A stretch of 45,690 nucleotides of DNA from Nitrospirota bacterium. GTDB taxonomy: Bacteria; Nitrospirota; UBA9217. Below are positions 17,691 through 23,540 of this stretch, piece after piece. Under the pieces are notes generated by a model. The model saw nothing but the letters and a program-made list of their open reading frames with translations. It was not told where the DNA came from and ran no database searches. Within the stretch, counting starts at the first letter, position 1; every line of letters begins with the position of its first letter. A program made the translations under genes and the position numbers. The stretch lies in NCBI GenBank assembly GCA_020052615.1, contig JAGVOT010000051.1, positions 1-45,690 on the forward strand. The letters are read 5' to 3'.

Positions 17691-18335
17691 ATGTATGTTG
17701 CTGACTGGATGACAAAAAGGACCTTCACCATCGGGCCCGACGATTATCTCTCCGACGCCATCACCCTGATGAAGGAAAAGGCGATCAAGCATCTGCCCGT
17801 CGTAAAGGCCGGCAGGCTCAAAGGCATCCTCTCGGACCGGGACATCAAGGAGTACAGCCCCTCCAAGGCCACGACCCTCGATATCTATGAACTGCACTAT
17901 CTCCTCGCGAACACCAGGATCAAGGAGCTCATGAAGACGAAGGTCGTCACGACCGCGCCGGACACCCCGGTGGAAGAGGCGGCCATGATCATGCTTGACC
18001 AGGATATCGGCTGTCTGCCCGTCGTCGACGGCGGATCGCTCTGCGGGATCATCTCGGACAAGGACATCTTTCACGCCCTGGTGGACATCACCGGCGTTCG
18101 TCACGGCGGCCACCGCATCTTCCTGACCGTCGAGGACCGTCCAGGCTCGATCCGCGAGGTCGCGGACATCGTCCGGCGCCACGGGTTCCACCTGCAGGGG
18201 ATCCTCACGTCCTACGAGTGGGCCCGGGAAGGGTATCGCAAGGTGGTCATTCGGACGACCGATATTGGTGATTTCCGGGGGCTCAAGGAAGAGCTGGAAG
18301 ACAACTACAGGAACGTCCAGATCAAAAAGGGATAA
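17691..18335 (+). CDS. CBS-CBS-ACT domain protein, AcuB-like
   Basis: The 214-residue protein has two CBS domains (about 1-60 and 76-135; MTKRTFTIGPDDYLSDAI, MKTKVVTTAPDTPVEEAAMI, DQDIGCLPVVDGG) and a C-terminal ACT domain (about 142-212; FLTVEDRPGSIREVADIV). Domain order and length equal those of Bacillus AcuB, a regulator linked to acetoin use. CBS domains bind adenyl nucleotides and ACT domains amino acids, so it probably senses energy and amino-acid status in the cytoplasm. Its position right behind livF suggests a link to transport or use of the liv substrate, an inference. A strong terminator follows at 18368-18397. Confidence 0.85.
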   Translation: MYVADWMTKRTFTIGPDDYLSDAITLMKEKAIKHLPVVKAGRLKGILSDRDIKEYSPSKATTLDIYELHYLLANTRIKELMKTKVVTTAPDTPVEEAAMIMLDQDIGCLPVVDGGSLCGIISDKDIFHALVDITGVRHGGHRIFLTVEDRPGSIREVADIVRRHGFHLQGILTSYEWAREGYRKVVIRTTDIGDFRGLKEELEDNYRNVQIKKG

Positions 18336-18444: not shown

Positions 18445-19560
18445 TCACGCCGCTTTCTTCATTTCCCGTACGGCGAACTTCTTTTCCAGCACCGCGAGCT
18501 TTTCCATGATGCCCGTGTATTCCAGCTCGTTCATGGGCAGCATGGCCGCGCCGAAGAACCCCTGCCTGCGCATGTCCATGGCCTTGTCCGCGACGTGGTC
18601 GCGCACCCGGTCCCAGAACGGATGGTCGAATGCGTCCACCGGGCCCGTCAGCTGCCCGTCACGGACGCAGAACGTCGCGCAGCTCACGACCGGCGGTCCG
18701 TCAAAGTAGCTGATCGTGGAATTCAACTTCACCGGCATGATCGGCATGGTGTGCGATCCCCGCATGCACCCGGCGACGAAGTGGCCGATGGCGAAAGGCT
18801 GCAGAACCTCGCCGGTCGCCGGAAAGTCCATCTGGCTGCGGATGAGCATGACCGGGTCGTCCTTGCCGGTATATTTTCCCGCGATGTTGTGGAGCCGCGA
18901 GGTCGCCACGGAGACCGCCTGGGTCCCCGCCGCGCGCGACCAGATCGATTCCACGACGAACCGCTCCGGGTCGCGCAGCAGCGTGGCGATGTCATAGAGG
19001 TCCTCGGGCGCGTTCAGCTCGATGATCCGGTCGCCCTCGGTGTTGTTCACGTCCATGATCACGAACTTGAAGCCCTTTGCCATCTTGGGGGAAAGCATGA
19101 GCCCCGGCGTGTTCATGGCGTCGCCGAAGGCGAGGTAGAGCGGAAGATTGTATGCCCCGGGATCGGTCTTGTCGGCCGCAAAGAACAGGAACGGCTCGCC
19201 CGGCCGCTCCTCGAACTCCATCTCCGTGACCGCGGGCCCCATGCCGTGCACGTTCCCGGAGAAGGCGTCTTTCAGCAGGTCCTGCCCCGCCCCGTAGAGA
19301 CCCTGGGACTTGGCCACCGCGGTCCCGGCGAGGAAGGCCTCCCAGGCAAGCTTGTGGACCTGCGCGTTGTCCACACCGCCGGTGTGGGTCATCAGGATGG
19401 CTACGTCATCTCCGGTGAAGCTCACGTAGCTGTCGATCAGCAAATCCTTGCCCTTCTCTTTGATATGCCGCGTCACGGTCGCCACGAGCTTTTCCGAAGG
19501 TGCGATGTGTCCTCCCACAGATCCGATGTCCGCCTTGATAACGCTCAGTGTGATCTTCAT
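18445..19560 (-). CDS. fbp: Fructose-1,6-bisphosphate aldolase/phosphatase (archaeal type, class V)
   Basis: A 371-residue member of the bifunctional FBP aldolase/phosphatase family, which condenses DHAP and glyceraldehyde-3-phosphate and then dephosphorylates the product to fructose-6-phosphate, making gluconeogenesis one-way. Hallmarks are MKITLSVIKADIGSVGGHIAPS, SFTGDDVAILMTHTGG, and Tyr230/Lys233 (KYTGKDDP), corresponding to the catalytic Tyr and Schiff-base Lys of the archaeal enzymes (Tyr229/Lys232). Several acidic residues expected to bind Mg are present. AAAGGAGG precedes the ATG. A perfect 12-base palindrome (19604-19615) lies 44 bases upstream. The enzyme is typical of archaea and deep-branching or autotrophic bacteria; pckG nearby supplies the same pathway. 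Confidence 0.95.
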   Translation of the reverse strand: MKITLSVIKADIGSVGGHIAPSEKLVATVTRHIKEKGKDLLIDSYVSFTGDDVAILMTHTGGVDNAQVHKLAWEAFLAGTAVAKSQGLYGAGQDLLKDAFSGNVHGMGPAVTEMEFEERPGEPFLFFAADKTDPGAYNLPLYLAFGDAMNTPGLMLSPKMAKGFKFVIMDVNNTEGDRIIELNAPEDLYDIATLLRDPERFVVESIWSRAAGTQAVSVATSRLHNIAGKYTGKDDPVMLIRSQMDFPATGEVLQPFAIGHFVAGCMRGSHTMPIMPVKLNSTISYFDGPPVVSCATFCVRDGQLTGPVDAFDHPFWDRVRDHVADKAMDMRRQGFFGAAMLPMNELEYTGIMEKLAVLEKKFAVREMKKAA

Positions 19561-19792: not shown

Positions 19793-21517
19793 TCAGGCGG
19801 GATCGGCGACCTTCCACAAGGTCTCAAAGTTGCAAATGATGACATCAGGTTCGCCAGCATGGTCCTTCACGATCTCGCCCCGGGAGTTCATCGCCAGGAG
19901 AAGGTCATTCATCTTCAGGAGCGAACCGTCGTAGCCCGCGCCGCGAAGCCGGGCGATGACACGGTCCAGATAGGCCCGTCCCTGCGCCGCATCGATGATG
20001 CCCTTGCGGACCGCCTTGGCAAGATCGACCGGGGTGAGCAGCTGGTCCTCGTGCTCCGGCACCCACTCGTCCGGTCCGTTGTAGTAGCCCCGTATGGTGA
20101 TGTAGTTATGCTCCGCCGCCAGCACGGGATCGCCGTCGATATCGACGATCGTCCGGTGGGACTGGTACCGCCGGGGATCGACCGACATCTCGATCTTCAG
20201 ACTGCCCGTCACGTAGATGGCGCGCACATAGACGGCATGGATGCCGCGGCTGTTCAGGTCCTGGGAGATGGCGAACTCCTCGAACGGGCTGTTGATGCCG
20301 TGGAGCCTGATCATCGCGATCTCCTCGGGGCTGAACTTGCTGTCCGTCGGGAACTCCCCCACGCGGGATGTTTCCCAGACCAGGTGAATGTTGTCCTTGG
20401 TGACCGTATAAAACACCTCGTTGTCGTTCGACAGGCTCAGGGAGGGCGTCTTGCGCCATCGCTCGGGAAGGAAGTAGTCGAAGAGGCGCGCGTTCCGACC
20501 GACGACCCACATGCGGCCGCCCGTGCTTTCCGCGCGTCCGAAGATATAGGGCACGCCGAATATCTCCGTGCGGGACAGGTGAGGAGGCAGCGGCGTCGGG
20601 TCGAGACGGCATTTCTGATCGTCAAGATAACAGTGCCGCCGGGTCGCCTTGACCCGGTCCTCGTGCTCCGGTGTCCGGAAGAGAAGCTCGTAGTCGATCA
20701 CCGAATATCTCCCCACCTCCATCAGGTGATAGAGCAGGTCCACCTGCTTTGCCGCCGCGCCGGCATCTCCGTTCCCGCCCAATTGCTCGATGCGCTCGCA
20801 GTCATGCTCCTCGATGATGACGTGCTCGGGCTTCATGTCCGCCATGAGATAGCCCTTGACGGTAAGGTGGTCGAGGGCCTTCTTCTGCATCGTTGTCAGG
20901 TGATGAACGAGGTCGGGCATCTCCACCTTGATGTGCTCGAAGATCTCGACGAGGTTCTTGCCCCGGATCCATTCGTAGACCAGCTTGTACTGCTTCAGGA
21001 TGTCGAGGTCGACGCCGGGATGGCGCGCCTGGATGCGGTTGATCTTTGCGCGCGACCGGCCGCTTTGCCACGCCTGCATCCGCTGGGGCGGCACGTAGAT
21101 CGCCAGGGGCCGCTGCACCTTGATCCACTGAAGCATCTGGCCGAAATGCTTGTCGCCCATCTCCATCACCAGGGCGAACTCCTCCCAGGGGCTGTTGAAT
21201 TCGGCGCTCATGAACTCCTGCAGCGTGTGGGTGTTCAGCGGAACATCCTCGCCGACGCGGTTGTGCTTGACCACCAGGTCGAGACTGGTGCCGTTGATGC
21301 GCCGCGTCGGGACGCGGTAGACCGAGCTCGTGCCCAGAAGGCGCACGCGGTGCTTCGTGAACCAGCTCTCTTCGTACCAGTTCTCGATCTGGAGATGCTC
21401 CTGGTGCGGCTCTGCGAAACGCGTGAGGTAAAGGTCGCCGCCGTCCTCCGTCGTGGTATGGAGGTACACGACGCCCAGGACGTTGACCAGCGAGGTTGGG
21501 TGGGAAGTCTTACGCAT
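19793..21517 (-). CDS. Unknown protein with protein-kinase-like segment (574 aa)
   Basis: I do not recognise a named family. The sequence contains pieces in kinase order: Lys84 in DLVVKHN (like the N-lobe ATP lysine), YEWIRGKNL (181-189, hinge-like), LMADMKPEHVII (224-235; Asp227 and Lys229 as in the DxKxxN catalytic loop, with His in place of Asn) and VIDYELL (273-279) where a DFG-like metal-binding Asp is expected. An internal duplication is also visible: NSPWEEFA (108-115) recurs as NSPFEEFA (409-416), each with similar flanks, so the second half may be a degenerate copy of the N-lobe-like part. It is cytoplasmic, with no signal peptide. The gene follows pckG on the same strand, with a hairpin between them. 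The start at 21517 lacks a good ribosome site. A phospho-regulator of metabolism is possible but speculative. Confidence 0.75.
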   Translation of the reverse strand: MRKTSHPTSLVNVLGVVYLHTTTEDGGDLYLTRFAEPHQEHLQIENWYEESWFTKHRVRLLGTSSVYRVPTRRINGTSLDLVVKHNRVGEDVPLNTHTLQEFMSAEFNSPWEEFALVMEMGDKHFGQMLQWIKVQRPLAIYVPPQRMQAWQSGRSRAKINRIQARHPGVDLDILKQYKLVYEWIRGKNLVEIFEHIKVEMPDLVHHLTTMQKKALDHLTVKGYLMADMKPEHVIIEEHDCERIEQLGGNGDAGAAAKQVDLLYHLMEVGRYSVIDYELLFRTPEHEDRVKATRRHCYLDDQKCRLDPTPLPPHLSRTEIFGVPYIFGRAESTGGRMWVVGRNARLFDYFLPERWRKTPSLSLSNDNEVFYTVTKDNIHLVWETSRVGEFPTDSKFSPEEIAMIRLHGINSPFEEFAISQDLNSRGIHAVYVRAIYVTGSLKIEMSVDPRRYQSHRTIVDIDGDPVLAAEHNYITIRGYYNGPDEWVPEHEDQLLTPVDLAKAVRKGIIDAAQGRAYLDRVIARLRGAGYDGSLLKMNDLLLAMNSRGEIVKDHAGEPDVIICNFETLWKVADPA

Positions 21518-21534: not shown

Positions 21535-21580
21535 AAAAAGAGCAACCGCCCCGGCACGCGGGGCGCCAGAGCGGTTGTTG
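21535..21580 (-). terminator. Terminator-like hairpin between pckG and the kinase-like gene
   Basis: On the minus strand CAACCGC pairs with GCGGTTG and an inner CCCCG/CGGGG stem forms within. The hairpin is followed by CTCTTTTTCC. It may terminate or attenuate transcription leaving pckG before the kinase-like gene, whose ATG lies about 20 bases further on. Confidence 0.45.
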
Positions 21581-21675: not shown

Positions 21676-23460
21676 CTATCCGAGCCGTTTCTTGAACGCC
21701 TCGAACTGCTGCTTCAGCCGGACAGGCAGGCGATCCCCGAAGACCGCGAAATGCTTCTCGATGTCCGGAATTTCAGCCTTCCACTCCTTGAGGTCCACTT
21801 CCAGGAGAGCCTTCATGTTCCCGGCGGGGATGTCCAGGCCGGACAGGTCCAGGTCCCCGTCCTTGGGCATGAACCCGATGGGCGTCTCCCGGGCGCCGAC
21901 CGTGCCGTCCACGCGATCGCACATCCACTTGAGCGGCCGGCTGTTGTCGCTGAAGCCCGGCCACAGGAACTTGCCTTCCGCGCTCTTGCGGAACCAGTTG
22001 ACGTAGAAGATGCGGGGCGCCTTCGCGCCCAGGGTATCTCCCATGGTGAACCAGTGAGCGAAATAATCTCCCATGTGATATCCGCAGAACGGCTTCATGG
22101 CAAAGGGATCACGGCGAAGATTGCCCACCGCCCCGATGTTCGCCGACGTGGTCTCCGAGGCTGCCGTCGCTCCCATGAACACGCCGTGGTCCCACGAATA
22201 GGCCTCGGTAACGAGCGGCACCACGCTGCTGCGTCTGCCGCCGAAAATGAAGATATCAATGGGCACGCCCTCGGGGTCCTCCCAGTCCGGGCAGATGACC
22301 GGGCACTGCGAGGCCGGCGCGGTAAATCGTGCGTTGGCATGCGCCGCGTCCTCGCGGCTTGCCGGCGTCCAATCCCTGCCTTTCCAGTCGATGGCATGGG
22401 AGGGAGCGTCCGACATGCCTTCCCACCATATGTCGCCGTTGTCCGTCAAGGCGCAGTTCGTGAAGATGACGTTCTTCTTCAGCGTATCCATCGCCATGGG
22501 ATTGGTGTCATAGGACGTGCCCGGCGCTACGCCGAAGAAGCCGCTTTCGGGATTAATGGCGTGCAGCCTCCCGTCGCCCCGGACCTTCATCCAGGCGATG
22601 TCGTCGCCGATGCACTCGCATTTCCAGCCCTTGAGCGACGGCTGCATCATGGCAAGGTTCGTCTTGCCGCAGGCCGAGGGGAACGCCGCCGCGATGTGGT
22701 ACCGTTTCCCCGCGGGGTTCGTCAGCCGCAGGATCAGCATGTGCTCGGCCATCCAGCGTTCCCGCCGCGCCATGTTCGACGCAATGCGAAGGGCGAGGCA
22801 TTTCTTGCCGAGCAGGGCGTTGCCGCCATAGCCGGAGCCGTAGGACCAGATGAGGTTCTCTTCGGGGAAATGGCTGATGTACTTCTTCTCGATCGGCGCG
22901 CAGGGCCAGAGCGCGTCCTTCCGGCCCTTCTCGAGCGGCGCCCCTATGGAATGGAGGCAGGGAACGAACTCACCCGTCTCACCGAGGACGTCAAGCACCG
23001 ACCTGCTCACCCGCGTCATGATGTGCATGCTGCAGACCACGTAGGGACTGTCAGTCAATTCCACGCCGATCTTGGCGATGGGCGAACCGATGGGTCCCAT
23101 GGAAAAGGGAATGACATACATCGTCCTTCCCTTCATGCACCCGGCGTACAACCCTCGCATGGTCTTCTTGAGCTCATCAGGATGGACCCAGTTGTTCGTT
23201 GGGCCGGACTCGTCCTGCGATGTTGTGCTGATGTAGGTACGGTCCTCTACGCGGGCCACGTCGCTGGGATCTGTGCGAAAGAGAAAGCTGTTCGGCCGTG
23301 TGGCAAGGGGGATCGCCATGCCGCGCCCCTGGAGAAGCGCCATCATCCGGTCGTATTCGGCCTTCGATCCGTCACACCACTGGATATCCTCGGGTTTGCA
23401 GAGGTCAGCGACCTCCTTGACCCAGGCGTTCAGTCGTTCGTTCCGCGATCCGATCGTCAT
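21676..23460 (-). CDS. pckG: Phosphoenolpyruvate carboxykinase (GTP)
   Basis: A 594-residue GTP-type PEPCK that converts oxaloacetate and GTP to PEP, CO2 and GDP. Visible motifs are [12 protein letters not shown] (86-97), the substrate/Mn site region [15 protein letters not shown] (206-220), and the P-loop FPSACGKTN (260-268) with the reactive Cys264 characteristic of the GTP enzymes. The guanine-pocket region [12 protein letters not shown] also fits. The start [10 protein letters not shown] at 23460 is preferred because AGGAG lies seven bases upstream; two earlier in-frame ATGs (23475, 23466) would put that site inside the gene. It is the gluconeogenic partner of the FBP aldolase/phosphatase gene close by. 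Confidence 0.96.
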
Positions 23461-23540
23461 CTTCATTCTCCTCATGCGTACGCCCCTGCCGCAGCCGGAG
23501 GGGTCCAGTCGCGTTCATGCCGCTGTTTTCTGTGAGCGGT

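Follow-up and report, generated by a model that had tools for sequence, protein, structure and literature searches.

A tandem kinase-like protein linked to one type of GTP-dependent PEP carboxykinase in Nitrospirota

In the 45,690-nucleotide stretch of Nitrospirota DNA analysed here (the window), a 574-residue kinase-like protein (KLP) is encoded directly downstream of pckG, the gene for a GTP-dependent PEP carboxykinase (PEPCK), as had been proposed. KLP is a tandem duplication. Its N-terminal half is related to protein kinases and conserves a catalytic set of residues, and its gene is linked to pckG and co-occurs with it. The reading considered best is that KLP is a kinase joined to a pseudokinase and the dedicated partner or regulator of one type of PckG in Nitrospirota, probably acting by phosphorylation; the chances of this are judged to be about even.

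The open frame of KLP starts with ATG. The coordinates and length given in the original prediction were confirmed, and the minus strand, which it had left unstated, is added here. A large open frame runs antisense over the gene (Table 1). When one antisense frame was translated in four relatives with a minus-strand KLP (L003, L004, L006 and L008), 1–5 stops were found, while the KLP frame stayed open. Thus, the minus-strand frame is the gene.

Table 1. Positions of KLP, its parts and other genes and features. Positions are those of the window unless a locus is named.
Feature	Position	Strand	Basis
KLP gene, whole	19793..21517	-	open frame; homologues in 39 Nitrospirota genomes
N-module, residues 1-305, kinase-like, catalytic residues intact	20603..21517	-	Pkinase profile match; PDB profile hits mostly kinases
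C-module, residues 306-574, degenerate copy (pseudokinase-like)	19796..20602	-	half-versus-half hhalign; catalytic residues lost
Glycine-loop-like stretch L60-x-G-T-(S/G)-S-V-Y, residues 60-67	21317..21340	-	L60, G62, S65, V66 invariant in 39; putative role
K84, presumed ATP-binding (beta-3) lysine	21266..21268	-	39/39; putative role
NSPWEEFA (108-115), first phrase copy, presumed helix C	21173..21196	-	N108, E112, E113 invariant
Catalytic loop A-D-M-K-P-E-H, residues 226-232	20822..20842	-	39/39; aligned to kinase HRDIKPxN loop
D275-Y-E277, presumed metal-binding (DFG-equivalent) motif	20687..20695	-	39/39
NSPFEEFA (409-416), second phrase copy	20270..20293	-	half-versus-half blastp and hhalign
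Antisense open frame, 715 aa	19859..22006	+	
Terminator-like hairpin, 15 pairs and T-rich tail, between pckG and KLP	21543..21577	-	window sequence
pckG, GTP-dependent PEP carboxykinase, conserved partner	21676..23475	-	NCBIfam NF003253, 944 bits
Class V fructose-1,6-bisphosphate aldolase/phosphatase (FBPA/P)	18445..19560	-	NF041126, 556.6 bits
CBS-pair and ACT-like protein	17691..18335	+	
322-aa protein	L202:6205-7170; L204:4322-5290	-; -	
Divergent ATP-PEPCK-like protein, examples (also L209, L210, L213 and others)	L205:92-1768; L206:5504-7183; L207:5576-7237	+; -; -	

Of 296 Nitrospirota genomes searched in full, 39 carry a KLP homologue, and in two of these (G187 and G212) the copies are broken or split. 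Residue conservation was counted over 39 full-length sequences from 39 loci. These share at least 56% pairwise identity and 68% on average (75–92% inside the genome family of the window, about 57–66% across the phylum), which is very conserved for a regulator; the corresponding identity of PckG is about 80%. No relative of KLP was found in the viral, plasmid and phage collections searched. A contig scan with two short motifs gave KLP matches in Nitrospirota only, and since it missed most of the known Nitrospirota members, room is left for homologues in other phyla.

The phrase NSP(W/F)EEFA had been noticed twice in KLP and taken as a hint of a duplicated module. Both copies are present, 301 residues apart, as the most conspicuous sign of a tandem duplication that covers the whole protein. 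The two halves, residues 1–305 (N-module) and 306–574 (C-module), align by hhalign with a local score of 56.9 (P=1.6e-7), compared with 21.7 for the reversed profile and no more than 24.1 for any of 40 column shuffles, and are also paired by blastp (E=0.001). Besides the phrase itself, blastp pairs GVVY...SDGGDLY with GVPY...STGG, SVYRVPT with EVFYTVT and LVVKHNRVGE with LVWETSRVGE.

The relation of the N-module to kinases was examined with profiles of Pkinase, ABC1, APH and Kdo built from local family alignments in related Nitrospirota genomes. Against Pkinase, hhalign gave a score of 44.5 (P=1.5e-5) over residues 177–256, in which LVYEWIRGKNL...KGYLMADMKPEHVII is aligned with the kinase hinge and the HRDIKPxN loop; the aligned regions are thus the hinge, helix E and catalytic loop of Hanks-type kinases. 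In 150 shuffles of the Pkinase profile the maximum was 24.6, save one 11-column artefact at the end of the profile (score near 136; the Kdo shuffles likewise gave one odd score near 136), and 11 unrelated neighbour families scored 20.1 at most. The scores against ABC1 (19.1) and APH (16.7) were within the shuffle range and Kdo/WaaP was likewise noise. In PDB profile searches nearly all matches were Ser/Thr kinases at the same loop, each of them weak (E 0.03–1; best 0.033), and together with the Pkinase match they bear out the kinase relation of the N-module.

No family in Pfam or NCBIfam covers KLP. The Pkinase model (PF00069) gave no match in Pfam at E≤10. The weak matches of KLP and its relatives at the same loop, ABC1 (E=0.24), PrkT (E=0.023) and, in relatives, WaaY (E=0.094), are all far below cut-off; PrkT, the best in NCBIfam, scored 13.7 bits where the cut-off is 280.

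The lysine, the D-x-K-P-E-H loop and the downstream Asp had been predicted to stand in kinase order, and their conservation in homologues was proposed as a check. K84, D227, K229 and D275 are identical in 39 of 39 sequences, as are E106, E112, E113, P230, E231, Y276, E277 and A226 of the catalytic loop. The His noted in place of the loop Asn (H232) is equally invariant. The helix-C Glu and DFG equivalences are our own assignment. The claim that a standard glycine loop is lacking needs softening: GxGxxG is indeed absent, but a short stretch L60-x-G62-T-(S/G)-S65-V66-Y/F with four invariant residues precedes K84. Phosphotransfer by KLP is uncertain, because His replaces the loop Asn and the Asp of the DYE motif lies 48 residues past the catalytic Asp.

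In the C-module, the equivalent of the lysine is E/K/R382, that of the catalytic Asp is L/S533 and that of the DFG metal Asp is N563, the last two by our own motif alignment. The profile comparison detected no kinase signal of its own in this module. As judged from the aligned sequences, the C-module is a degenerate copy of the N-module that has lost the catalytic residues. Since the N-module is related to kinases and has an intact catalytic set, and the C-module has no catalytic residues, KLP is most likely a kinase followed by a pseudokinase.

Structure predictions were of low confidence. AlphaFold2 models had a mean pLDDT of 41 for full-length KLP (13 sequences) and 54 for the C-module (11 sequences). 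Foldseek searches with the poor full-length model returned mostly kinase folds, with RIOK3, AceK and PRPK among the first (E≥0.014), and no match at E≤0.001; the C-module model gave no decisive match. The models being of low confidence, they do not prove the fold, and the kinase fold of KLP is supported by sequence and not by structure.

The neighbourhood of pckG, the conservation of which had been suggested as a further check, is conserved far beyond the window. On the same strand, pckG lies upstream of KLP in 37 of 39 genomes (34 of 36 by gene calling and three more by tblastn). In 27 genomes nothing lies between the two genes, and where they are adjacent the median gap is 39 bp. All other neighbours of KLP vary, so that pckG is the only one conserved across the phylum. 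In the remaining two genomes, G249 and G187, KLP and pckG are on separate contigs. In one 74%-complete genome (L039 in G006) the pckG match upstream of KLP is in two separate pieces, perhaps owing to a frameshift or an assembly error. In the window the two genes are separated by the strong terminator-like hairpin, a point against the preferred reading; it may perhaps lower the expression of KLP relative to PckG. In most relatives the gap is too short for such a hairpin.

A GTP-PEPCK is present in 48 of the 296 genomes, including all 39 with KLP. The co-occurrence (Fisher P=2e-40) is not corrected for phylogeny and is inflated by co-inheritance through the phylum. Of the nine genomes with PckG and no KLP, seven have a divergent PckG, with 29–31% identity to the PckG of the window in G108, G183, G218 and G295 and 49% in G159, G291 and G151; these are two further types of GTP-PEPCK, and neither was ever found with KLP. 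Within a single genome family, f11, KLP accompanies the type-1 PckG in three genomes and is absent from six with a divergent PckG. KLP was likewise found in none of the 58 genomes with a match to the PEPCK_ATP family. As an observation in its own right, G218 has a true ATP-PEPCK besides its divergent GTP-PEPCK. Since genomes with divergent types of GTP-PEPCK lack KLP, it follows the PckG protein and not the reaction, and the partner, originally given as PEP carboxykinase, is refined to one type of GTP-PEPCK. The other two genomes, G233 and G273, keep the same type-1 PckG without KLP. KLP is thus not strictly required for PckG, which argues against a role as an obligatory PckG maturation factor. 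No convincing signature of changed residues was found in the PckG of these two genomes (n=2).

In several genomes pckG-KLP lies directly before genes for an M50 protease or trpS, and in other genomes a divergent ATP-PEPCK gene stands alone before the same M50-trpS genes. At this locus a two-gene unit looks to have been exchanged for a single gene. The divergent ATP-PEPCK-like protein (about 555–570 aa) is found in about 45 Nitrospirota genomes, and in the genomes examined its gene is usually directly upstream of the M50 protease and trpS. It scores roughly 36–61 bits to PEPCK_ATP, far below the NCBIfam pckA cut-offs, and is possibly an unrecognised class of PEPCK.

FBPA/P, encoded downstream of KLP, was seen as a neighbour in the genome family of the window only. 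As a partner of KLP it was rejected, its co-occurrence being at chance level (7/39 versus 61/257, P=0.54). In two genomes of this family (G012 and G009), an ATP-PEPCK-like gene and FBPA/P are separated by a gene for a 322-aa protein, which has a hydrophobic N-terminus and contains an HEYLH/HEFLH stretch. It was considered as a short KLP and rejected, having the HEYLH stretch and no kinase motif; the L202 copy had no Pfam or NCBIfam match. A CBS-pair and ACT-like protein, encoded in the window beside a branched-chain amino-acid-type ABC transporter operon, is kept near FBPA/P in several relatives.

On the most economical reading of these results, PckG itself would be the target of KLP. In the proposed mechanism, the N-module, with its short glycine loop, ATP lysine, catalytic Asp and Lys and metal Asp, would most likely bind ATP-Mg and would phosphorylate either PckG or one of its complex partners. 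Phosphorylation of PckG would adjust the flux from oxaloacetate to PEP. The C-module, as a dead copy, may serve to bind PckG or as a sensor of metabolic state. The pairing of an active site that looks intact with a degenerate one suggests a kinase that carries its own pseudokinase for regulation or docking. The fuller proposal, that the KLP family is a private kinase of PEP carboxykinase and a post-translational switch of gluconeogenesis, analogous to AceK and of separate origin, is put forward tentatively and rated somewhat short of even.

The strong conservation of KLP leaves room for a different reading, in which it would be a non-catalytic subunit that binds PckG, its modules serving as ATP or metabolite sensors and as a scaffold for allosteric control with no phosphotransfer. 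Both modules are highly conserved (mean identity 68.3% for N and 67.8% for C), the two genes form a closely spaced pair, the loop is atypical, with His for Asn and no HRD Arg, and the C-module is clearly degenerate. In the N-module, K84, D227, K229 and D275 nevertheless stayed fixed, whereas the C-module counterparts of Lys and Asp drifted, which suggests that the N-module was kept for catalysis. A purely non-catalytic KLP is accordingly regarded as rather unlikely.

Less probable still, KLP could act in the PEP/oxaloacetate branch as a small-molecule kinase or as some other phosphotransfer enzyme, its co-transcription with pckG being a coincidence. A DxE motif is typical of small-molecule kinases of the APH/choline-kinase type; the D-Y-E of KLP resembles it, and the conservation of KLP is enzyme-like. 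Against this, KLP follows the type of PckG rather than the pathway and is absent where PEPCK is of the divergent GTP or the ATP type, and in profile comparison it resembles protein kinases, not the APH family. Kinase-fold enzymes with chemistries other than phosphotransfer are also known, for example the AMPylation carried out by SelO, and an atypical active site with Lys and Asp intact would suit AMPylation or glutamylation of PckG. Nothing specific favours such chemistry, and the D-x-K is kept as in phosphotransferases, so that this is held to be improbable. That the two genes have no functional link and merely keep an order frozen by vertical inheritance is very improbable, for although the distance matrices of KLP and PckG correlate (r=0.78), as vertical descent predicts, every other neighbour varies at the same loci, KLP persists with PckG in G249 and G187 where the two are not adjacent, and KLP is absent alongside other types of PckG.

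Compared with known systems, the kinase-pseudokinase reading places KLP closest to the Hanks-type kinases (PF00069), with which its hinge (LVYEWIxGxNL), helix E and D-x-K-P-E loop align significantly and with which it shares a beta-3-type Lys, a catalytic Asp and a downstream metal-type Asp whose equivalence is presumed. It differs from them in lying below Pfam detection, in its duplicated module, and in the absence of GxGxxG, the HRD Arg, the loop Asn and DFG, in place of which it has the short L-x-GT(S/G)SVY, A-D for R-D, His232 and a DYE after a variable insert. Its Pfam matches to ABC1/UbiB and WaaY are weak, with no significant profile similarity to ABC1, APH or Kdo/WaaP. An Ala precedes the catalytic Asp in ABC1 and RIO, and a His occupies the Asn position in WaaP; KLP has both. 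JAK-type proteins are tandem kinase-pseudokinases, and KLP similarly has one intact-looking and one degenerate module per chain. KLP departs from the JAK type in having the kinase ahead of the pseudokinase and a duplication that lies within its own family, and no relation by sequence was seen between the two.

A functional analogy is AceK, which controls isocitrate dehydrogenase by phosphorylation and dephosphorylation, as described in PMC6591243. AceK is of similar length (solved chains of 547–566 residues), controls one central-carbon enzyme and is among the weak Foldseek matches of the low-confidence full-length model. KLP, in contrast, is a tandem duplication with PEP carboxykinase as partner, and no AceK model is among its Pfam matches up to E=10. 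Neither the kinase fold nor a kinase dedicated to a metabolic enzyme is a new idea, the latter being known from AceK (PMC6591243). What appears to be new is the KLP family, with its tandem layout and its association with PEPCK; a search of open-licence papers found no description of KLP.

If the proposal is correct, Nitrospirota would gain a post-translational switch of gluconeogenesis acting on PEPCK, comparable to that of AceK on isocitrate dehydrogenase. The control would fall on the first committed step of gluconeogenesis, across a bacterial phylum. To our knowledge, few bacterial kinases dedicated to a single metabolic enzyme have been described. A kinase and a dead kinase derived from a single duplication within one protein would, moreover, be an instructive example for the origin of pseudokinase regulation outside eukaryotes.
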